38,175 nt of DNA from Candidatus Gribaldobacteria bacterium (lineage in GTDB: Bacteria > Patescibacteriota > Minisyncoccia > Minisyncoccales > CG1-02-41-26). The stretch spans positions 1-38,175 of the forward strand of contig JAPLWE010000036.1 in the NCBI GenBank assembly GCA_026396705.1, given 5' to 3'. Position 1 is the first letter of the stretch; every line of letters starts with the position of its first letter. A program made the translations under genes and the position numbers. The notes under the pieces are model-generated. The model saw nothing but the letters and a program-made list of their open reading frames with translations. It did not search any database and was not told where the DNA came from. Below, in pieces: positions 1 through 37,841 of the stretch.

Positions 1-545
1 TACCCTACGACTAGCCGAAGCTTTCCCCACGCCCAAATTGCCATATTGATCAAGCGACAACATTGAAACTCCAGTAGTAGAAGCAATGTTTAAACTATTA
101 ACGCCCGCTACTCCAGCAATAGCAAACTTAGCTGACGGAGTAGAAGTGCCAATGCCGACTGTAGCTGTGCCAGTATTAGCAATGAACAACGGAGTAAGGG
201 TTGGGGTAGTGCTTGTGCCAACTTGAAAACTACCATAAACATCTAATTTAGTGTAAGGGGTAGAGGTGCCAATACCCACATTGCCAGCCGAAATTAAACT
301 TTGGAAAGAAGCATTGCCAGTTCGGTCAATTTCCCAATTAGGAGTAGATATTCCAAAAAAACTATTGTTGATTAAATTATATTGATCAAGAGTTAAGCTT
401 CCAATTTGCATTCCCCTGCTAGCATTAAAATTTTGAGCAAAAACTGATTTCCACCGAGAGCCAGAACCATAATAAATATATGCCTGGCCATGCCCATTTT
501 CATTACCAACAAAAGCTCCATTAGCTCCAACCATTATATCCGCTT
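1..545 (-). CDS. C-terminal continuation of the large surface protein (last FG-GAP-like blade plus tail-fibre-like 'GIGTSTP..K' repeats); runs off the window edge
   Basis: Minus-strand translation from about 540 to 1 is open: DIMVGANGAFVGNENGHGQAYIYYGSGSRWKSVFAQNFNASRGMQIGSL...VGIGTSTPYTKLDVYGSFQVGTSTTPTLTPLFIANTGTATVGIGTSTPSAKFAIAG.... Not in the ORF track because it has no stop in the window. It is in the same frame as 1213..5493. Confidence 0.75.
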
Positions 546-1212: not shown

Positions 1213-4200
1213 CTACCCCCCCGCTATTAAAAACTCCGCCAGAGCCCCAGCAATAATGTCTTGATAACCATCGCCATTAACATCAGCAACAGCTAAACTG
1301 CGAGCAAGCTGATCCCCATCGGCTGAACCATTTATAACAACATCAGCCACATTGTCCATTGCCGGCCCGCCGTAGTAAACATATATTTGGCCTCTTGCAG
1401 AACCTCCTCCAGCCGCAGCATAAGCTGAAACAATAGCATCCATATATCCATCGCCGTTTACATCGCCAGTAGCCACCGCTGTACCTAATAAATCGCCATT
1501 GTTTGCCCCGGTAAAAGTAATGTCGGCTGTGTTATCGGGACCAGTTGGCCCGCCGTAAAAAATATATGCTTGGCCTTTTTGAGTACCGCCCCCTTTAGCT
1601 AATTTTGCGGAGACAAGAACATCTTCATAGCCATCACCGTTAAAATCGCCATGGGCTAAAGAGTTGTAATAACCCAGATAATCAAATTGAACCAGCCCGT
1701 TGAATGTTACATCGGGCGTTGTGTCCATTGATACTGTGCCTAAATTATAGGCAAAGCTGGTTTCTGGTTTTATATTTCCTGCCACTTCTAATTTTTCTGT
1801 TGGAGTGCTTGTGCCAATGCCCACTAAACCAGCCGAAGTAATGTTAAAAAATGATGTTTCGGTGGAAGAAGCTACTCTAAATAAATCAGCAATTTGACCG
1901 GCCTTGCCTCGCACATCTAAAGAAATCACTGTAGTAGTGGAAGAATCATTTTGCATTAAAATGGACTGATTAAAATCAAATCTGTCCGCTATGCTGTCCC
2001 AAGTTAGCAAGGCATTGGGCACAACAGTGCCTCTAAAGAAAATTAAATTAGCTGTTTCGGTATCAGCCGTGGCGTTGTCCGCATTAATAACAAAATCATT
2101 GCTGTTTGTGCCCCCAATACTTGTAGAAGCAACGGACATATTATTAGCAACAATGCTATCAATATAAAGATTATCCCAGAAATAAGCAGCCGAGCCCAAA
2201 TTGCGCAATGCATTTTGATCAGGTATAAGATTAGAAGCCACCGCCGAATTGACTATTACATTAGTGGAAGAAGAAGCGCCAAAAACAACCGAGCTGCCCC
2301 CCACAAATAAATTACCAGTGGTAGTGGCGTTCCCCATAAAATAAGTATCGCCTTCAACCGTTAGTTTGGCTATGGGAGTGGTAGTGCCCACGCCCAACCG
2401 AGCGGTAGCGCTATCCCAAAAAAGATTACTATTATTTTGCGACAATAATCCACCGCTACCAACAAACGGCACTGATCCAGCAGTCAGAGCAGAAAAATAA
2501 GTATTACCAGCGATAACAAGTTGGCTAGCAGAAGTAACAGTTAAAGTAGAAGTGCCACTAACTATTAAATTACCAGAAATAACCGAATTGCCAGTAGTGG
2601 TGCTATTGCCGACAATTACAGTATTGCCAGTAATGGTGGTGCTGCCAGTTAAACTAATATCACCAGCGGTATTTATAGCCAAGCGAGCTGTTTCGCCTTG
2701 ATATAAAGTATAAGCCGAACTGGTGGCAAATTTTTCAAAGAGGTTATTAGCCGAGGACAATAAAATATCACCAGTAGTATCGGTTTTAATAGAAATCCCA
2801 TTACCCGTCAGATTTAATACGCCAACGGAAGCAAGAGTAGAAACGCCAGCCGATGAAACATTAGTTGTAAAATAATGAGAACTGTTGTAAGCCACTGTTA
2901 GTTGCGGTGAAGAAGTTGAAGTAATAACCATAGCCCCTCCGCTGGCTGTATTAAACACCAGGCCATTGAGAGTAAGATCGCCCGCGATATCAACATCTTT
3001 ATTAAAGGTTACATCAGCTAAAAATCCAGCAGAAGCGTTAACTGTTAAAAAGTCGCTGTCGGTTTTACCAAGTGTTGTAGAGCCACCTACTGATAATTCT
3101 CTAATACCAGACAAGCCGCTCACCCCCAATGTGTTAAAATCAGTTCCACCGCTAATTTGCAAACCAGTTGAGCCAATGTAAGCTGGAGCGGCAGAAACTA
3201 TTGAGTAAATTGGCGGAGTAGCTTGAATTTTAGTTAATAAATTGCGTAATTCTTCAAGGTCATTAACGCTAGCAGCTTTAGCGGCGTTTCTTTGCAATTC
3301 AGCAATCTGGGACCTGATTAAAACAAGAGAGCTTTCATCAATTCGCGCGATTTCTCTAATTGTATTTATGCTAGCATTTTGCGATAAAGCGCCTTTTTCA
3401 ATTATCCCGCTGATTATTTCTTTGGGCGCTAATTCTTTTGGCGTTAATTGAGCAATCATTTCTTCGGCTGCTGAAGTGGTTGTGGGAATAATTTGACCAA
3501 CTGGAGCATTCACGACAGCGGTCTTAACCAATTGTTGAGTTGCCTTTTCTCGCCAAGGCATAGTAATAAATTCATAGCCCTTGGCCAGCCCTTCGCTTGT
3601 TCGATTATATATACTATATGTAAGAGAACGCAAAGCCCCCGCGGCATCCCCTATTCCTTCAACAATTTTATCGCCGATAGCATTGCCACTGATTTGAGCG
3701 CTATCCCAAGCAATTTGCGAGGTAGCCCGCAAGCTCTGCGAAGTTAAGCTGGTAAAAAATTTAATCTTTTGGAAGAAAGTTAAAGAAAACTCATCAGCCT
3801 TATTAGTAGAGCCAATCATTAGCCAAGCCATCCCCTGCTGAACATTTTCTAATAAATTAGCGCTAAAATTATCAATGTTATTTGCCAATTGATCGCCCCG
3901 CTGATTAACTCCAGCAGTAACCGCTCGCCAATTATCTTGCCAATTATTTTGACCAGCTGCCCAATAATTCCCTACTTTATTTTCAATGTTAGCTTGCAAT
4001 CCATCTATTGTTACTAAAACTATTTTACCAGTGGCGTTTAATTGCTCAATCCAAGCTGAAAAACTCAAAGAAATGTCATTCCGAGCCTTGGCGAGGAATC
4101 TCTGGCAATCAACTGCCGCTTGATCAAATAATTTATTAATTTCTTGTTCTCCAAAAACTAAAGCTTGACTGACAACATAATTTTTATCATTAAAAATACT

Positions 4201-5493
4201 TAACTGATTATAAACTTCATTGACAATCACCTCTTTAACTTTATTAAAATCTACATCTACCCGCCAGCCATCTGATATTAACTTAGACTCTTGAAAAGTT
4301 CTTTCTAATTCATATTGACGATTTTTAATTTCAACCCTCACAACATCTTGCAAAACAAAAAATGACTGTTTAAATAATTTACCAATTGCTGGCGCTTTTT
4401 TTAGAAAATTAACTACTTGATAATTTTTAGGAGCTTCATCAAGCGCCACTTGACTAACATGAACAAAAAATTGATAAACCCCCTCTTTGAACTCTTTTTG
4501 AACCATAGCCATTGAAACAATAATTTTGTTTATATCATGCCGAGAAAAATCCCCTGCTTTTCCTTCAATATAATTTTCTATATTTTCTGTAGCTAATATA
4601 GTATCAACTAAATCAGCGTAAACAAGTTGTTTTTCTTTTTGGAAAAAGTTGCTAGTAGATGAAATAAAATTTTGAAATTCATTTTGCGCAATAACTTGCA
4701 AAGCAAATTTCTGCTCACCTAAAAATCTAGTAAAATCATTGGTAGTGGTATTTAATTGTTCGCCGAAAAAAGATAAATCATTATTCGCTTTTTCTTTTGA
4801 TACTTCATAGACATTTTGTAGACTTTTAAGCGCTGTTTTTTTAGCTGCCTGTTGTAAATCATTAATATAAGGGAAACCAAAAACTAACCCAGCTGAACAA
4901 AAAATTAAGATAGTGGCAGCTAGTAAAACAGCGCTTTGCTTTTTAAGTAGTTGCAAAGTAGAATAAAAATTATTTTTTAAATTAATTGCTGGCGAGAAAA
5001 TTTTTTGTTGTAGGAAAGCGCCGAATACTTGAGAAATTTTTTGCTTATTATCAACATTGTTTTTATATTCATCAATCCATTCTTTAGCAATCAACCAGTT
5101 GCGACCAATCTTGACCGCCTTAAGCTTGCCTTGTCTAGCTCTCAAACTTAGATACTCTTGCGAATAACCGCTATAATTTTCTAACTCACTCAACGAAAAA
5201 AGCTTTAGAGCTGTTGCAGTTGATTTCTTTTGACGCAAACTATTGGCTATTATTTCCGTTGACGATTTTGTATCGGATAAAGCATGCCCGCCAACTTCGC
5301 CATTGCCATTGAACACAGCAATATACTCCTCAACCCACTCTTTTTTGGTGAGCCAGTTGCGACCAATCTTGACCGCCTTAAGCTTGCCTTGTCTAGCGCG
5401 CAAACTTAAATATTCCTGAGAGTACTCAGTATATTTTTCCGCGGCCTCGGTGAGCGATATATATTTGTTTGTCTTGATTTCTTCGCTTGTCAT
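1213..5493 (-). CDS. Large chimeric membrane/surface protein: two N-terminal HTH-like units, TM segment, long coiled-coil region, tail-fibre-like repeats, FG-GAP repeats
   Basis: Duplicated unit SQEYLSLRARQGKLKAVKIGRNWL..KEW..EY; hydrophobic SAVLLAATILIFCSAGLVFGFP; 'GVGTTTPIAKLTVEGD' and 'GIGTSTPTEKLEVAGN' repeats; GDFNGDGYEDVLVSA / GDVNGDGYMDAIVSA / ADVNGDGYQDIIAGA. Confidence 0.8.
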   Translation of the reverse strand: MTSEEIKTNKYISLTEAAEKYTEYSQEYLSLRARQGKLKAVKIGRNWLTKKEWVEEYIAVFNGNGEVGGHALSDTKSSTEIIANSLRQKKSTATALKLFSLSELENYSGYSQEYLSLRARQGKLKAVKIGRNWLIAKEWIDEYKNNVDNKQKISQVFGAFLQQKIFSPAINLKNNFYSTLQLLKKQSAVLLAATILIFCSAGLVFGFPYINDLQQAAKKTALKSLQNVYEVSKEKANNDLSFFGEQLNTTTNDFTRFLGEQKFALQVIAQNEFQNFISSTSNFFQKEKQLVYADLVDTILATENIENYIEGKAGDFSRHDINKIIVSMAMVQKEFKEGVYQFFVHVSQVALDEAPKNYQVVNFLKKAPAIGKLFKQSFFVLQDVVRVEIKNRQYELERTFQESKLISDGWRVDVDFNKVKEVIVNEVYNQLSIFNDKNYVVSQALVFGEQEINKLFDQAAVDCQRFLAKARNDISLSFSAWIEQLNATGKIVLVTIDGLQANIENKVGNYWAAGQNNWQDNWRAVTAGVNQRGDQLANNIDNFSANLLENVQQGMAWLMIGSTNKADEFSLTFFQKIKFFTSLTSQSLRATSQIAWDSAQISGNAIGDKIVEGIGDAAGALRSLTYSIYNRTSEGLAKGYEFITMPWREKATQQLVKTAVVNAPVGQIIPTTTSAAEEMIAQLTPKELAPKEIISGIIEKGALSQNASINTIREIARIDESSLVLIRSQIAELQRNAAKAASVNDLEELRNLLTKIQATPPIYSIVSAAPAYIGSTGLQISGGTDFNTLGVSGLSGIRELSVGGSTTLGKTDSDFLTVNASAGFLADVTFNKDVDIAGDLTLNGLVFNTASGGAMVITSTSSPQLTVAYNSSHYFTTNVSSAGVSTLASVGVLNLTGNGISIKTDTTGDILLSSANNLFEKFATSSAYTLYQGETARLAINTAGDISLTGSTTITGNTVIVGNSTTTGNSVISGNLIVSGTSTLTVTSASQLVIAGNTYFSALTAGSVPFVGSGGLLSQNNSNLFWDSATARLGVGTTTPIAKLTVEGDTYFMGNATTTGNLFVGGSSVVFGASSSTNVIVNSAVASNLIPDQNALRNLGSAAYFWDNLYIDSIVANNMSVASTSIGGTNSNDFVINADNATADTETANLIFFRGTVVPNALLTWDSIADRFDFNQSILMQNDSSTTTVISLDVRGKAGQIADLFRVASSTETSFFNITSAGLVGIGTSTPTEKLEVAGNIKPETSFAYNLGTVSMDTTPDVTFNGLVQFDYLGYYNSLAHGDFNGDGYEDVLVSAKLAKGGGTQKGQAYIFYGGPTGPDNTADITFTGANNGDLLGTAVATGDVNGDGYMDAIVSAYAAAGGGSARGQIYVYYGGPAMDNVADVVINGSADGDQLARSLAVADVNGDGYQDIIAGALAEFLIAGG
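5095..5139. repeat. 45-bp exact direct repeat (unit 1) inside the HTH-surface protein gene; unit 2 at 5353-5397
   Basis: CCAGTTGCGACCAATCTTGACCGCCTTAAGCTTGCCTTGTCTAGC occurs twice, 258 bp apart. Confidence 0.95.
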
Positions 5494-10923: not shown

Positions 10924-12585
10924 TAATTGTAGCTTTTTTTTCAAAAAAGTTAATAGCTCTTTGCATAAAATAATCGGCTCTTTAACGCCCAATAGCCAAC
11001 AAGTTGTCAGGTAAACTGCTCCGGAAAACACAACCGTTAAAAACGCCTGCAAAAATATGCCCAAAACTGTATTAACAATTAAAAATGCTGCGCCTACCCT
11101 CAAAAAAATATAAGCGCTTGCCGACATTATCAAACAAGCCAGTAAAATTTTTATAATAAAAGAACGATCAAACAATGATTTGCCAGAAATATTTATTTTT
11201 CTTTGCAAACTATTTGATAACCAAAAAAATTGAATAATGGTGGAGAAAGATAAGGCCAGTGGCAAGGCTAAAATTGATAAATTATCTATGCCTTTTAGCT
11301 TAAACAAAAAAGAGAAAAAATTAGCAATCGCTTGATGGCTTGCTAGTAATTTCACCAATAACCACGCTGAAAGCAAGTTCAATAAAACCGACCAAACAGC
11401 AATTTTTACAGGTGTTTTGGTGTCATGTAAAGCATAAAACGCTCTAGCTAAAAGAGGAATCAAGCAAGCGGCAAAAATAGACAAGGAAAAAATTCCCAAA
11501 GCAGCCGCCGTCAAACGAGTTTCCCACCAGCCGAAGTAACCAGAGGCAGTTAACTGCGTGCCGTATAAAATTCTAATGATTTGCGCTCTTAAAATAAACA
11601 TCAAGCAACTTACTGGCGCAACGCATAAAATAACTTTTCTCAATACAGGCGAAATTGCGCTAAAAAACTTATCTTTATTGCCAGCAGCCGCATAACGGGA
11701 AAGAATTGGAAAAATAACAGCCGCAAATGGCACGCCAATCAAGCTCACTGGCACACCATAAAGATTGTTTGATAAATTAAAAATCTTGATAGAGCCAACC
11801 GCCAACATAGAGGCAATAGCAGTAAGTATTACTAAATTTAATTGATAGGCGGCCGATCCAAAAACGCGTGGTGTCATTAGCTTAAAAATTTTCCGCAATT
11901 CAGATGAGCGAAAATCAATTAATAACCGTGGGCTAAATCCCATTCTTAAAAGAGGGGGCACTTGAATTAAAAGATGCATCCCAGCCCCTAAAACAACCCC
12001 CCAAGCCAATCCCAAAAGCCCCATTTTTGGGAAAAAAAACAAAAGCCCAATAATAATACCCAAATTATAAAACAAAGGAGCCAATGAAAAAGCGACAAAA
12101 AAATTAAAATACTGCAAAACAGAAGAAAAAATCGCTGAAACGCCCAGGGCAATCGGACTGAAAAACATTATTCTAACTAAAGCGACGGTTTGCAACTTTT
12201 GTGGCAAAGAAAAGCCCGGCGCTATAACTTTGACGATTAGGGGCGCGAAAATAGCTAACAAAACAGATAAAATTACCAAGAATAAACCAAAAACAGTAAA
12301 AACATTATTAAACAAACGACGGGCTTCTGTCTGACTATTCTGAAAGGAATGAGCAAAAACCGGCAAAAAAGCCGCCACCACTCCCCCTGTAATTAAAAGC
12401 CCATAAACAAAATCAGGAATACGAAAAGCAGCCCAATAAACATCCGCTTGAGCATTACTTAAAAAGTTAGCCAATAGATTATCTCTTAAAATAGCTAAGC
12501 CATACCCTAAAAAAGTAGCAATTGAAACAAAAAAGACCGCTTTGTTAACGGTATGAGTTTGAAAATTTAAAATTTTCTTTAACAT
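10918..12585 (-). CDS. murJ: MurJ/MviN-family lipid II flippase
   Basis: Multi-TM protein with MviN features (LRDNLLANFLSNAQADVYWAAFRIPDFVYGLL...). ATG at 12585 preferred over the TTG at 12591. Confidence 0.88.
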   Translation of the reverse strand: MLKKILNFQTHTVNKAVFFVSIATFLGYGLAILRDNLLANFLSNAQADVYWAAFRIPDFVYGLLITGGVVAAFLPVFAHSFQNSQTEARRLFNNVFTVFGLFLVILSVLLAIFAPLIVKVIAPGFSLPQKLQTVALVRIMFFSPIALGVSAIFSSVLQYFNFFVAFSLAPLFYNLGIIIGLLFFFPKMGLLGLAWGVVLGAGMHLLIQVPPLLRMGFSPRLLIDFRSSELRKIFKLMTPRVFGSAAYQLNLVILTAIASMLAVGSIKIFNLSNNLYGVPVSLIGVPFAAVIFPILSRYAAAGNKDKFFSAISPVLRKVILCVAPVSCLMFILRAQIIRILYGTQLTASGYFGWWETRLTAAALGIFSLSIFAACLIPLLARAFYALHDTKTPVKIAVWSVLLNLLSAWLLVKLLASHQAIANFFSFLFKLKGIDNLSILALPLALSFSTIIQFFWLSNSLQRKINISGKSLFDRSFIIKILLACLIMSASAYIFLRVGAAFLIVNTVLGIFLQAFLTVVFSGAVYLTTCWLLGVKEPIILCKELLTFLKKKLQLN

Positions 12586-12612
12586 TGACAAAAATTAAAT
12601 GCTTGTTATAAT
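12585..12612 (+). promoter_or_regulatory. Sigma70-type promoter of rnpB
   Basis: TTGACA (12585-12590), 16-bp spacer, TATAAT (12607-12612), about 8 nt before the mapped 5' end of rnpB. Confidence 0.85.
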
Positions 12613-12619
12613 TAAAATG

Positions 12620-13102
12620 CCTTAGCAAATTAAGCAACTGCTGTGTTTATAATAACAAATTATGAGCACAGAGGAAAGTCCGAACTCCCCCAAGCGTATA
12701 ATTTATGCGTTTGGAGCAAGGTAGTGGGTAACACCCGCACGCGGTAACGCGAGAGTTGCGAGCAGAGACGCTCCAAGCTGAAAAGCAAAGAGCACCAAGA
12801 AATTTTCTTGGTGAATCTCGAGGGAAACCTTGAGGGTGAAACGGCTAAATACTTACCTGGGAGCAAGAGCAAACCAGACAGGAAATGCAGAGGTCGAAAA
12901 TACCGAGGGCAGACCTCCCTTAAACTGAATATTATATTTATTCAAATTAGAGGAGGTCTGCCCTCGGTATTTTTGACCCGACCTCTGCATTTCCTGTCTG
13001 GAAAAGTAGCTCGCATGACCCTAACAGCAATGTTAGGGCTAGATAAATGGTTGCACTCTGCTTTAAGCAGAGCACAGAATTCGGCTTACAAATTTGCTAA
13101 GG
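12620..13102 (+). ncRNA. rnpB: RNase P RNA
   Basis: GAGGAAAGTCCGAACTCC core, late motif 'GCTAGATAAATGG', 3' 'CACAGAATTCGGCTTA'. P1: CCTTAGCAAATT (12620-12631) pairs with AATTTGCTAAGG (13091-13102), then TTTTTT. Confidence 0.93.
12874..13001 (+). repeat. Long inverted repeat (extra hairpin) inside rnpB
   Basis: CCAGACAGGAAATGCAGAGGTCG.AAAATACCGAGGGCAGACCTCC (12874-12918) pairs with 12952-13001, interrupted by one ~5-nt bulge; AT-rich loop. Confidence 0.95.
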
Positions 13103-13541
13103 TTTTTTGTTTATTTTTTTGATCAAGCGCTTCATTAACCAAGTGGTCAGCTGCGCTGTTTTGTTCACGAGGTATCGCCACAAAATTAACAATTGAAAAA
13201 TCAATCAATAAATTCCAAGCCTCTAGAAATAGTGGCTGGATTTTTTCGCCATTTATTTTATAGCGATGAGATAATTGACGCACTAAAAGCTCTGAATCTG
13301 ACCTTACCTCAAAAACATACTGCTTAAGATTCTCTTTACCAAAAATCTGCTTGGCTTTTTTCAAAGCAAAAATTAAACCGCCATATTCGGCTTCATTATT
13401 GGTGGCAATGCCCATAGTTTCCCCGTAGCTCTTAATAACAACCCCATTCTCGCGACTAAAAACAACGCCAAAAGCAGCTGGTCCGGGATTGCCCCTTGAG
13501 CCACCATCAATATTAATTATTATTTTTTCCATACATTTCAT
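13086..13541 (-). CDS. RNase HI-like protein
   Basis: IINIDGGSRGNPGPAAFGVV...NNEAEYGGLIFAL...RSDSELLVRQL: RNase H catalytic motifs. Start may be the ATG at 13532. Confidence 0.88.
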   Translation of the reverse strand: MKCMEKIIINIDGGSRGNPGPAAFGVVFSRENGVVIKSYGETMGIATNNEAEYGGLIFALKKAKQIFGKENLKQYVFEVRSDSELLVRQLSHRYKINGEKIQPLFLEAWNLLIDFSIVNFVAIPREQNSAADHLVNEALDQKNKQKTLANL

Positions 13542-14682
13542 TAAAATATTTTTCTAAACATTTTTTTAAGTCATCTACATTCTCGCTACTCACCGTGAAC
13601 CCCGCGGCTGGCGGATGACCGCCATACATCAAAAGCAATGAAGCGCAACTTTTTAAGGCCACCACAGCGTCTATATTTTTTGGCACACGCACAGAGCCGC
13701 GGCATTTCTGAATATCTCTCTTAAAAATAAAAGTTGGTTTTTTATATTTATTGCAAATCCGTGAAGCAATCGCCCCAGAAAAAACCCTCTGCCATGACTC
13801 ATCTCCCTCAAAGATAATTGGCGAGAGAGATTGTTGGGCTCTTTGAGAAACGATTTCCGTAATTTCATAGATTTCTTGATTGCGCTTATCAGCTTCGCTT
13901 AAAAGCTTTTTAGCTAAAACCATAGCCTCTTCTTGAGAAGCGGTCTTTAGTAGAAGATAACATTCGGTAAGATGGTTAGTTACTGGGGAGATGTTAAGAA
14001 TAAGCGATAACTTTTTAAAAATTTCCCGGGCTGAACTTTCGCCAAGAACAGCTACCTGTATCATCGCTTTTAAGCCCGGTCTTTGGGTTTGCTTAATAGT
14101 GGCGGCTCCTTTGCCCACTAAAACTGCGTTTAAGTCTTCCTCGGGCATCATGTCAGCGATAGTGCCTAAAGCCGCTAACTCGGCAAAGCTTTGCTCTAAA
14201 AAACTGCTGAAGTTTTTGCCTAATAAAAACTGACTCAACCGATAAACCAAACAAACAGTAGTTAGCTTTTTGAAAGGATAATGGTCGCCTTTTTGCTTGG
14301 GATCAATAATTAAATCGGCCTTAGGTAGGGCATCTAAAATCTCATGATGATCAATAACAATAGTTGTAAAGCCCATGGCTTTAGCGATAAGTAATTCTTC
14401 AAAATTGCCAATACCGCAATCCACTACTATTAACAAAGCTGGGGCGTGCACCTTGAGCGCTTGCAAGGCCTGCTTATTAAGACCATAATCAGAGCTTTCC
14501 CATTCAGAAAAATAAACAAGCAAATCAGCTGTGGGATTAACATTTCTGATCGCTTCTTCAAGCAATAAAGCCGAGGTTGAGCCATCTAAATCAGCGTCGC
14601 CAAAAATAACAATCTTGCCATTTTTAGCAAGTGTTTTTTTAATTAAGTCAGCCGCTTTTTTTAAGTTTTTTATTTCTTTCAT
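13513..14682 (-). CDS. RecJ-like DHH/DHHA1 phosphoesterase
   Basis: FGDADLDGSTSALLL, VVDCGIG, VIDHHE, ALGTIADMMP, C-terminal MYGGHPPAAGFTVSSEN. Confidence 0.88.
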   Translation of the reverse strand: MKEIKNLKKAADLIKKTLAKNGKIVIFGDADLDGSTSALLLEEAIRNVNPTADLLVYFSEWESSDYGLNKQALQALKVHAPALLIVVDCGIGNFEELLIAKAMGFTTIVIDHHEILDALPKADLIIDPKQKGDHYPFKKLTTVCLVYRLSQFLLGKNFSSFLEQSFAELAALGTIADMMPEEDLNAVLVGKGAATIKQTQRPGLKAMIQVAVLGESSAREIFKKLSLILNISPVTNHLTECYLLLKTASQEEAMVLAKKLLSEADKRNQEIYEITEIVSQRAQQSLSPIIFEGDESWQRVFSGAIASRICNKYKKPTFIFKRDIQKCRGSVRVPKNIDAVVALKSCASLLLMYGGHPPAAGFTVSSENVDDLKKCLEKYFNEMYGKNNN

Positions 14683-14697
14683 AAGTGGAGTTTACAA

Positions 14698-14764
14698 TGA
14701 TGTTAGGGGCTCGGACAACTAATTTCAAAGAGACGCTCACTCGCTCCAGCGGCTGTAAGTCATA
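14698..14764 (+). repeat. Truncated copy E of the dispersed element (left arm plus right terminal 'GTAAGTCAT')
   Basis: ATGATGTTAGGGGCTCGGACAACTAATTTCAAAGAGACGCTCACTCGCTCCAGCGGCT|GTAAGTCAT. Confidence 0.88.
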
Positions 14765-17272: not shown

Positions 17273-17443
17273 GGCTTGCGCTAATGTTTGGGACTCGGAG
17301 AGTTAGTTTCAAGGAGACGCTCACTCGCTCCGGCGGCTCGTTCGCTTAGTTTTCGGCCTTATTTTCCGCCAGTAAGCGGAACCAAGCAAATAGGCCTCAA
17401 AATACTCCTTGAAACTAACTTCCTCGCCCCAAACGCGCAAGCC
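17273..17443 (+). repeat. Dispersed palindromic element, full copy A
   Basis: GGCTTGCGCTAATGTTTGGGACTCGGAGAGTTAGTTTCAAGGAG...CTCCTTGAAACTAACTTCCTCGCCCCAAACGCGCAAGCC with internal hairpins. Confidence 0.95.
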
Positions 17444-17451
17444 TTAAAAGA

Positions 17452-17676
17452 TTATTTTCCGTAAATGTAAAAAAATAAATAAACCAAAGTAAAAATCAAA
17501 ACACAAAACGAAAAAACATTGAATATATGCAGGGCGGCTACTTGAATGCCGGTCATAACATTCTGACGATTAACCACATCACGATTAGTCCATAAGAAAC
17601 AAAGGTAAGCGAAGACAGCAAAAATAACTAAGCCCAGGCCAATTAAAAGATATACCCAAAAAGATAGTAAAGCCAT
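17452..17676 (-). CDS. Small two-TM membrane protein
   Basis: 74 aa, two hydrophobic segments. Confidence 0.6.
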   Translation of the reverse strand: MALLSFWVYLLIGLGLVIFAVFAYLCFLWTNRDVVNRQNVMTGIQVAALHIFNVFSFCVLIFTLVYLFFYIYGK

Positions 17677-24407: not shown

Positions 24408-24536
24408 AGTTTTTTATTAGATTATAATTATATTGGAGCTGGCAATAATACCTTTTGAGGTGCTCGAGTGTTCCCTCCGCGGATGTGGAGGCTTAAGCTC
24501 GGGAGCCCATCTCACTAGACGCCGCTCTACAAAAAG

Positions 24537-25226
24537 TCATCTTGCGAAAGGTGATTTTTTGTTTTTAGCAAAATTTTCCCAATAATCTTTAAATAGCTCC
24601 TCTGAAATAACAATACTGTTCTTAAACAAAGAAAAGTATTTTTCTCCATTTTTACCCTTGTTGTAATACCTAAACAAACCACCGCATATCCAATCCGCGA
24701 TTTGAATGTTTGTGTTATCAGCCGAATTTACTGCCTCCAATTGGACTACTGTTTTTTTGGAGAAATTTGGAGACAATCCTACTTTTAAAAATTCATTAAA
24801 CTTTGCCTGAGAAACCCCTTTTAGTTGTCTAAAATCTCTATAAACACGAAACTCTAAATCGCTTGTCGGCAAAAGAAACCGTAATGCTTGCTCTACGATT
24901 TCAGTGTATAGCAAGCCAGTTTCAATACCTTTTTTATTGCGATAACTCTCTGGTATATTTTTAACTTTAAAAAATACATAGAAAATCCTGATATCGCTTT
25001 GGGCTAAGTTTCCCAACGTTTTTAAGCGCATTTCTTCGGTAAGCCGAGTATCTGAAAATTTTAACTCTGTTCTATAACGGAGCTTTTTATTGGTAAGTTT
25101 TATTTTTCGCCACTTACGAAAAACCCTGGCAGTTCTTTTGGGTTCATTGGTAATAAAACCGCCCACAACAAAAAACTCATTTTGCTTCCCGCACAAATCT
25201 CCAGATTCATCAATAAAAATATACAT
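24537..25226 (-). CDS. DUF3800-like protein
   Basis: MYIFIDESGDLCGKQNEFFVVGGFIT...RTELKFSDTRL...VNSADNTNIQIADWICGGLFRYYN pattern. Confidence 0.8.
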   Translation of the reverse strand: MYIFIDESGDLCGKQNEFFVVGGFITNEPKRTARVFRKWRKIKLTNKKLRYRTELKFSDTRLTEEMRLKTLGNLAQSDIRIFYVFFKVKNIPESYRNKKGIETGLLYTEIVEQALRFLLPTSDLEFRVYRDFRQLKGVSQAKFNEFLKVGLSPNFSKKTVVQLEAVNSADNTNIQIADWICGGLFRYYNKGKNGEKYFSLFKNSIVISEELFKDYWENFAKNKKSPFAR

Positions 25227-29403: not shown

Positions 29404-29576
29404 ATGACTTAAGGTATGTTAGTGGCTCGGAGAGTTAGTTTCAAGGAGACGCTCACTCGCTCCGGCGGCTCGTTCGCTTAGTTTTCGGCCTATTTTCCGC
29501 TAGTAAGCGGAACCAAGCAAATAGGCCTCAAAATACTCCTTGAAACTAACTTCCTCGCCTCTAACCCATAAGTCAT
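29404..29576 (+). repeat. Dispersed palindromic element, full copy B
   Basis: ATGACTTAAGGTATGTTAGTGGCTCGGAGAGTTAGTTTCAAGGAG...CTCCTTGAAACTAACTTCCTCGCCTCTAACCCATAAGTCAT. Confidence 0.95.
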
Positions 29577-29670
29577 TAATTTTATAAAAGAAATTATACA
29601 TTGATATCTTAATCTTTGGGCTAAAAAATTGCAAGATAGGGCGTTGAATGATAAAATATAAAATAAGGTT

Positions 29671-32285: not shown

Positions 32286-32457
32286 GCCTTGCGCTGATGT
32301 TAGGGGCTCGGATAACTAATTTCAAAGAGACGTTCACCCGCTCCAGCGGCGGGCTCACTTAGTTTTCGGCCTATTTTCCGCCAGTAAGCGGAACCAAGCA
32401 AATAGGCCTCAAAATACTCTTTGAAATTAGTTTCCTCGCCCCTAATTACGCAAGTCA
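32286..32457 (+). repeat. Dispersed palindromic element, full copy C (variant arms)
   Basis: CTTGCGCTGATGTTAGGGGCTCGGATAACTAATTTCAAAGAG...CTCTTTGAAATTAGTTTCCTCGCCCCTAATTACGCAAGTC. Confidence 0.95.
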
Positions 32458-32462
32458 TAAAA

Positions 32463-32921
32463 TTATTGAGGCGTAACAGCTGGGGTGGCTGGTTTTGGTC
32501 TTAACTGGATCGATTGGGCCGTGAGGCTGCCGTCTTGATTGGTGGCGCCGCTTATGCTGACATTTTGGCCAATTATTAGATCGTCAAGCGAACCAGCGGC
32601 AAATTTCATTACCTGGGTGGAAGTGGCGATAAAGGCTATTTTAGAGCCGCCGTCGCTCAACTTCACAGTAACACTATTGGCGTCTTTGGAAATAATCTCA
32701 CCCATTGCAAGACCACCGCCATTGCGAGTTGCTCGCTGAACCCCAGTATTAGCGCCACCAGCCATCTGCTGGAAACGAGCTTGCCTTTGCTCTGGTGTAA
32801 GATTAGCCAATCCCCCGCCAGCTGACTTGCTTTTGCCATATTGCATACCACCATAAAAAGAACCGACCCCGACCACGATAGCGACAATAATAGCTATAGC
32901 TATAATTATATTTTTTTTCAT
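32463..32921 (-). CDS. Membrane-anchored DUF5666-like protein
   Basis: N-terminal TM plus [68 protein letters not shown]. Confidence 0.7.
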
Positions 32922-36630: not shown

Positions 36631-36644
36631 ATATATATTGAGAT

Positions 36645-36809
36645 GGTTGCAAAACTATTCCTACTGCAATTTTAGCTTTTTGGCTACGACTTCGTCGGGC
36701 TGGCGTAAAAAGATTTTCACCATAGCTGGGCTATGGCTCAAATCTTTTTTCTTGCCCTCCTTGTCTCGCTCAAAAATCTAAACTTTCGCTACGGAATAGT
36801 TTTGCAACC
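36645..36809. repeat. Second, unrelated nested palindromic element
   Basis: Perfect 17-bp terminal inverted repeats GGTTGCAAAACTATTCC / GGAATAGTTTTGCAACC; inner AAAAAGATTT..AAATCTTTTT and CCATAGC..GCTATGG. Confidence 0.93.
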
Positions 36810-36817
36810 CTCTCTTT

Positions 36818-37649: not shown

Positions 37650-37814
37650 TTACGCTGATGTTAGGGGCTCGGAGAGTTAGTTTCAAGGAGACGCTCACTC
37701 GCTCCTGCGGCTCGTTCGCTTAGTTTTCGGCCTATTTTCCGCCAGTAGGCGGAACCAAGCAAATAGGCCTCAAAATACTCCTTGAAACTAACTTCCTCGC
37801 CCCTAACCCGTAAT
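37650..37814 (+). repeat. Dispersed palindromic element, full copy D
   Basis: TTACGCTGATGTTAGGGGCTCGGAGAGTTAGTTTCAAGGAG...CTCCTTGAAACTAACTTCCTCGCCCCTAACCCGTAA. Confidence 0.95.
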
Positions 37815-37841
37815 TTTTTATATCTATATAATTAATACGAA

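Follow-up and report, generated by a model that had tools for sequence, protein, structure and literature searches.

In the genome of Candidatus Gribaldobacteria bacterium, the gene of the RNase P RNA (rnpB) carries a 128-nt hairpin in the place normally taken by L15/P16/P17, and the comparison with its relatives makes it probable that, in this CPR family, this apical loop of P15 is a place where dispersed, non-autonomous palindromes can land and be tolerated, the hairpin described here being a layered one. The genome (G000) is an 847-kb draft in 64 contigs, and the window, the whole stretch of DNA that was analysed, is its contig C38 (38,175 nt). Sixty genomes were searched, namely G000 and 59 relatives, among which G001 is the sister species, G002 the third species of the genus and G012 a member of another genus.

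The RNase P RNA gene and its hairpin

The covariance model RF00010 matches positions 12622-13104 of the forward strand over its full length (model positions 1-367) with 122.9 bits (gathering score, 100), which confirms the RNase P RNA proposed by the earlier sequence-only reading and assigns it to class A. It is the only RNase P RNA copy found by genome search in G000, and a sigma-70-type promoter ends 9 nt upstream of it. Outside the insert, the gene aligns well with that of G001 and the peripheral stems differ by paired changes; for these reasons the remainder of the ribozyme looks functional. The features of the locus are the following.

12585-12612 (+), sigma-70-type promoter of rnpB, TTGACA-16-TATAAT, 12/12 consensus matches
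12622-13104 (+), rnpB, bacterial class A RNase P RNA (RF00010, 122.9 bits)
12867-12870 (+), P15 5' strand GAGC (RF00010 alignment, folds)
13009-13012 (+), P15 3' strand GCTC (RF00010 alignment, folds)
12874-13001 (+), entire 128-nt hairpin replacing L15/P16/P17 (inverted-repeat arms, folds)
12874-12881 (+), basal stem CCAGACAG, 5' arm, common to G000 and G001 (rnpB alignment with G001)
12994-13001 (+), basal stem CTGTCTGG, 3' arm (rnpB alignment with G001)
12882-12896 (+), middle stem GAAATGCAGAGGTCG, 5' arm (resembles the element arms of G012 rnpB and G010 C111)
12979-12993 (+), middle stem CGACCTCTGCATTTC, 3' arm (comparison with the G012 and G010 elements)
12897-12974 (+), inner 78-nt palindrome AAAATACCGAGGGCAGACCTCC-loop-GGAGGTCTGCCCTCGGTATTTTT (100% identity to G000:C36:3475-3552)
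12974-12978 (+), 5-nt bulge TGACC in the 3' arm (folds)

The hairpin had been described, from inspection of the letters, as occupying 12874-13001 with a stem of about 45 bp, a bulge of about 5 nt and an AT-rich loop, and this description proved accurate nearly to the base pair. The outer arms (12874-12896 and 12979-13001) are complementary over 23 bp at 100%, and the inner ones (12892-12931 and 12939-12978) are slightly imperfect (88%). The minimum-energy fold of 12874-13001 (–94.3 kcal/mol) has a 45-bp stem, made of 23 + 22 bp around the bulge on the 3' side, its sole interruption, to which the AT-rich loop adds 4 + 6 bp. The region 12860-13023 is far more stable than expected (z = –14.6, with none of 200 dinucleotide shuffles equally stable), and 99.999% of the pairing mass of the insert is internal. 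No group I or group II intron family reached the gathering threshold of the covariance models in the insert.

The same region in relatives

The length of L15/P16/P17 was taken as the distance from GCAAGA to GTAGYTCGC, and 46 RNAs allowed this measurement, a few of them with mismatches in these boundaries. In 41 of the 46 it is 9-59 nt long, and the remaining stretches are those of G000 (137 nt), G024 (109 nt), G030 (105 nt), G001 (98 nt) and G012 (98 nt). Since most relatives have the short form, including the congener G002, with an ordinary apical hairpin of 41 nt of the common form GTTTCGACAATCTCCGGATTTGCCGAAACG, the possibility that all of them possess an ordinary long P16/P17 is excluded.

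The rnpB of G001 carries the same element subfamily in the same place with different junctions, reading CCAGACAG-ACAA-CCGAGGGCAGACCTC... where G000 reads CCAGACAG-GAAATGCAGAGGTCG-AAAATACCGAGGGCAGACCTCC...; the core common to both has few differences, one of them a paired change from C-G to T-A. On the sequences, the two copies may go back to a single insertion inherited by both species or to two separate ones. A scan of the whole collection for rnpB with this core returned one true match, PFAV01000052.1 (Ca. Gribaldobacteria CG10_41_12), identical to that of G001, and the other 17 matches were devoid of rnpB motifs. These comparisons also bear on an assembly artefact, a fold-back inverted duplication, which a draft in 64 contigs with some copies near contig ends might suggest. 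Such an artefact is scarcely credible, since separately assembled genomes contain members of the family with other flanks; moreover, the independently deposited PFAV01000052.1 has the same subfamily in the same place, the stem has an interruption, and the loop is a genuine sequence that occurs at another locus as well.

In G012, rnpB carries an element with the arm GAAATTACAGAGGTCG-GACCTCC..., and in G008 the P15-P17 place is filled by a repeat of about 178 bp, unrelated to the palindrome family, whose assembly there is less certain because a run of N lies close by. This repeat has at least seven copies in G000 and more than 40 matches in G001, and one of its copies lies in the window:

36639-36814 (–), MITE-like dispersed repeat of about 178 bp, ends GATGGTTRCAAAACT..., outside this rnpB (a copy fills the P15-P17 site of G008 rnpB)

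With inserts in the rnpB of G000 and G001, of G012 and of G008, the P15-P17 site thus appears to have been filled in three genera, at least two repeats of unrelated sequence being involved. In G024 and G030, the long P15 region does not clearly consist of a dispersed repeat, one weak match to such sequences having been found. As a separate observation, G001 has an extra copy of the element between rnpB and the next ORF (L182:447-537, G001:C59), with a long locus-specific stem, and the corresponding stretch of the window (13103-13125) is free of it.

A dispersed palindrome family

The inner 78 nt of the hairpin (12897-12974) have a second copy at G000:C36:3475-3552, between the 3' end of the 16S rRNA and a tRNA gene, which is 100% identical including the AT-rich loop, and there are weaker copies too. 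The arms of the family read ...GGGCAGACCTCC/GGAGGTCTGCCC..., and the other copies share the arm GGGCAGACCTCC with loops that differ. Exact matches to this 12-mer number 18 in G000, 26 in G001, 8 in G008 and 2 in G018, and there are none in the other 56 genomes searched, the reversed control giving 0 everywhere. The paired core GACCTCC-14..40-GGAGGTC is found 7, 17, 7 and 4 times, respectively, in the same four genomes and in one or two copies in three further ones, being present in 7 of the 24 family genomes and absent from 17. No consistent target-site duplication was seen among the copies, one possible TAAA repeat aside. In the wider order, hairpins with GACCTCC/GGAGGTC arms also occur in family f9 (G116, G119, G031, G121 and G123; 3-10 per genome), with short AT-rich loops differing from those of the family described here.

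The structural RNAs themselves might have been the donors, the dispersed copies having escaped from rnpB or rRNA, e.g., by the copying of abundant RNA; the identical copy in the 16S-tRNA spacer and the fact that several copies adjoin stable-RNA genes would fit such an origin. It is nevertheless very improbable, given that most copies belong to a short-loop subfamily which is absent from the rnpB of G000 and G001, and that the dispersed copies are found without the rnpB basal stem.

The 14 copies inspected are located in intergenic stretches, at the ends of genes or within weak ORFs. Many intergenic copies are placed after gene ends with A and T tracts on their flanks, and orthologous copies differ by paired compensatory changes that keep the stems complementary; both features could be expected if the inserts were retained for a function, for instance fragmenting or regulating the RNase P RNA, or serving as bidirectional terminators of which some reached RNA genes too. 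We regard a retained function as improbable: presence is patchy even between congeners, unrelated repeats fill the same rnpB site, the rnpB hairpin was not flagged in the terminator scan, and the preserved pairing is equally explained by template-switch correction of the arms.

Copies in 16S and 23S ribosomal RNA

Members of the family are also found within ribosomal RNA genes. The 16S rRNA of G001 carries a copy in helix 6 (V1), with the 16S model matching on both sides of the long insert, and in G000 the same helix lacks the element, having only the short hairpin ATTGTAGTAATACAAT between flanks 97-99% identical to those of G001. In G008, an early hairpin of the 23S rRNA (model positions about 274-297) carries a copy that extends the native 7-bp stem CCAATGA/TCATTGG. 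The same 23S rRNA (L207, G008:C28) has a second insert of more than 90 nt at model position about 583, possibly close to a classical IVS site.

These copies weigh on the alternative that the native P16/P17 was lengthened in place under RNA-level selection, its likeness to other hairpins reflecting a terminator-like motif. The peripheral helices of CPR RNase P RNAs do vary greatly in length, an extended P15 having been reported (PMC8172020), and compensatory changes maintain the pairing of the stem. Lengthening in place is, however, quite improbable, as the 78 nt are identical, AT-rich loop included, to an unlinked copy, the same core stands in 16S and 23S rRNA and at intergenic sites, and the congener G002 and most relatives remain at 9-59 nt; it appears largely refuted by that unlinked copy and by the presence/absence pair in 16S rRNA.

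Location at hairpin tips and empty sites

The 12-nt flanks outside the arms of the element pair with each other within a copy at 9 or more of 12 positions in 26 of 44 copies (mean identity 0.70), whereas flanks taken from different copies do so in 2.9% of the pairings (mean 0.35); 18 of the 44 copies have no strong extension of the arms, and a null of random positions essentially never yields an extension of this kind. Since the flanks are complementary within copies and not between copies, many copies thus form the tip of a palindrome specific to their locus.

Pairs of loci in the two sister species illustrate this arrangement. The empty site at G000:C46 is itself a hairpin, CGAGTTGAATATACGAG-GG-CTCGGATATTCAACTCG (–18.1 kcal/mol, z –5.4), and its counterpart G001:C17 has the element at the hairpin tip, the pairing of the shared stem being kept by a change from A-T to G-C. 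At G001:C47 the core stands at the tip of a larger palindrome that is absent from G000:C34, and at G000:C60 and G001:C54 the same site bears different tips in the two species. The entire hairpin, locus-specific arms included, is missing from the empty sites G000:C13 and G001:C32, so that entry into a pre-existing hairpin is not needed for every copy. The comparison is between two species, and at such presence/absence sites deletion would be as possible as insertion.

A probably layered insert

The middle stem of the G000 hairpin resembles the arms of the element in the rnpB of G012 (GAAATTACAGAGGTCG) and of an intergenic copy in G010 C111 (AAAATTACAGAGG...), and this likeness to the subfamily seen in G012 is what makes the hairpin look nested. 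The simplest reading is that the middle stem is a remnant of one subfamily with a second subfamily at its tip, an assignment that rests on about 12 nt. The sequence-only reading had proposed a recent palindromic insertion. An insertion agrees well with the family, whose 78-nt core is found elsewhere at 100% identity; a single recent event does not: the junctions differ in G001, which has the same subfamily in this place, and a second subfamily seems to be represented by the middle stem. Together these two observations point to a layered history. The ongoing homogenisation of the arms, suggested as the alternative, is visible, in the paired compensatory changes of orthologous copies, as either homogenisation or selection for pairing.

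A proposed explanation

According to the explanation that we favour, non-autonomous palindromes are copied into hairpin tips, and the layers in G000 would be an 8-bp basal stem, a middle stem like one subfamily and, at the tip, the 78-nt element of a second subfamily. Because the element is self-complementary and lies at the tip of a hairpin, it would only add a longer, independent helix pointing away from the core, and the ribozyme would survive. The same rule, hairpin tips with complementary arms, would place copies in 16S helix 6, in the 23S hairpin and in intergenic hairpins, and in structural RNA genes only tip insertions would survive, since these add a free-standing helix. The elements would be passengers rather than functional parts, and the identity of their arms may be maintained by selection for pairing or by the template-switch correction of imperfect palindromes that is known as quasi-palindrome mutation.

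As for the movers, two candidates were considered and set aside. The hairpins beside Y1 genes, compared in three of the five Y1-bearing stretches, are not the family palindrome in G000 C18 (CTGTCAACACTCGGTGTTGACAG) or in G001 C20 (AGGAAGGAGCTTCGCTCCTTCCT), and G008 has seven paired cores with no Y1 match; resident Y1/RAYT transposases were thus rejected on both sequence and co-occurrence. An autonomous parent with the same ends seems unlikely as well, because the core motif GGGCAGACCTCC occurs almost only as close inverted pairs, no long-distance pair having been found.

Long duplexes are substrates of RNase III, and G000 has a gene for this enzyme, so the mature RNase P RNA may consist of two pieces: RNase III would clip the 45-bp duplex as in the rRNA IVS. 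Between such clipping and the simple retention of the insert we see about even chances. A more far-reaching proposal, rather unlikely as a whole, is that the palindromes are directed to hairpin tips when they move, through extruded or single-stranded DNA hairpins or through RNA hairpins themselves, nesting layer by layer, and that cutting by RNase III yields a natural two-piece RNase P.

Implications and other features of the window

If the favoured explanation is right, unrelated dispersed repeats have settled more than once at one peripheral site of an essential ribozyme, as well as in 16S and 23S rRNA, and dispersed inserts would explain part of the odd lengths of RNase P RNAs in CPR genomes. 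Natural presence/absence pairs offer a test of how far this RNA tolerates extension or breakage, tip-targeted nesting sets a concrete puzzle about the movement of short palindromes, and the regions used in 16S surveys (V1/helix 6) can carry mobile hairpins, which is a warning for such surveys.

Elsewhere in the window, the Rfam DUF3800-V RNA motif is found at 24434-24529 (+; 75.5 bits), adjoining the ORF 24537-25226 (–). Another dispersed repeat of about 180 nt, also present in G001, occurs at 17284-17462, 29416-29594, 32297-32475 and 37658-37836, with a partial copy at 14674-14754. The large ORF 1213-5493 (–) contains a direct repeat of 118 nt (81%; 5064-5181 and 5322-5439), corresponding to a repeated N-terminal domain.

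Comparison with known systems

The closest parallel is with the intervening sequences (IVS) of rRNA, self-complementary inserts at the loops of rRNA helices that are tolerated and patchy among relatives. In CPR rRNA, short non-intron inserts have been described at known IVS sites (PMC11270868), and IVS are excised by RNase III without ligation (PMC4990558). Like IVS, the elements described here are self-complementary, stand at a helix loop of a structural RNA and are absent from close relatives (rnpB, 16S helix 6, 23S); unlike them, they are also dispersed intergenically, are shorter, and occur within the RNase P RNA, for which no report of an IVS was found in the open-licence literature.

By description, the family is also similar to the repetitive or double hairpin elements of mitochondria and to the GC clusters of yeast, short hairpins dispersed in intergenic sequence and in variable parts of rRNA, and for the mitochondrial elements in rRNA it has been reported that they are retained in the RNA (PMC2800124). 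Those are organellar, whereas the elements described here are bacterial and nested. With REP/REPIN sequences they share being short, palindromic, intergenic and dispersed in a genome with Y1 genes, and they differ from REP/REPIN with RAYT in that the hairpins beside the inspected Y1 genes are not the same and that the G008 copies have no Y1 match. The STRR short tandem repeats of cyanobacteria reportedly lie inside rnpB and are, likewise, genome-dispersed repeats within an RNase P RNA, but the elements described here are inverted, single or nested palindromes and not tandem. The Rickettsia palindromic elements (RPE), said to be inserted in-frame in protein genes, are comparable, by description, as dispersed bacterial palindromes inside functional genes; in contrast to them, the 14 copies inspected show no in-frame insertion within a confirmed protein gene.

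The extended P15 helix reported in CPR RNase P RNA (Lui et al., 2021; PMC8172020) concerns the same ribozyme, region and bacterial radiation, and the portion of that paper considered here notes no repeat or mobile origin for it. In the open-licence literature we found no account of RNase P RNA carrying dispersed palindromes and none of MITEs in CPR. Palindromic inserts tolerated by structural RNAs are already known as a kind; what appears to be new, as judged from the open literature, is the host RNA, a dispersed family that rnpB has in common with rRNA genes and intergenic hairpins, the nesting, and the fact that one site has been occupied repeatedly.
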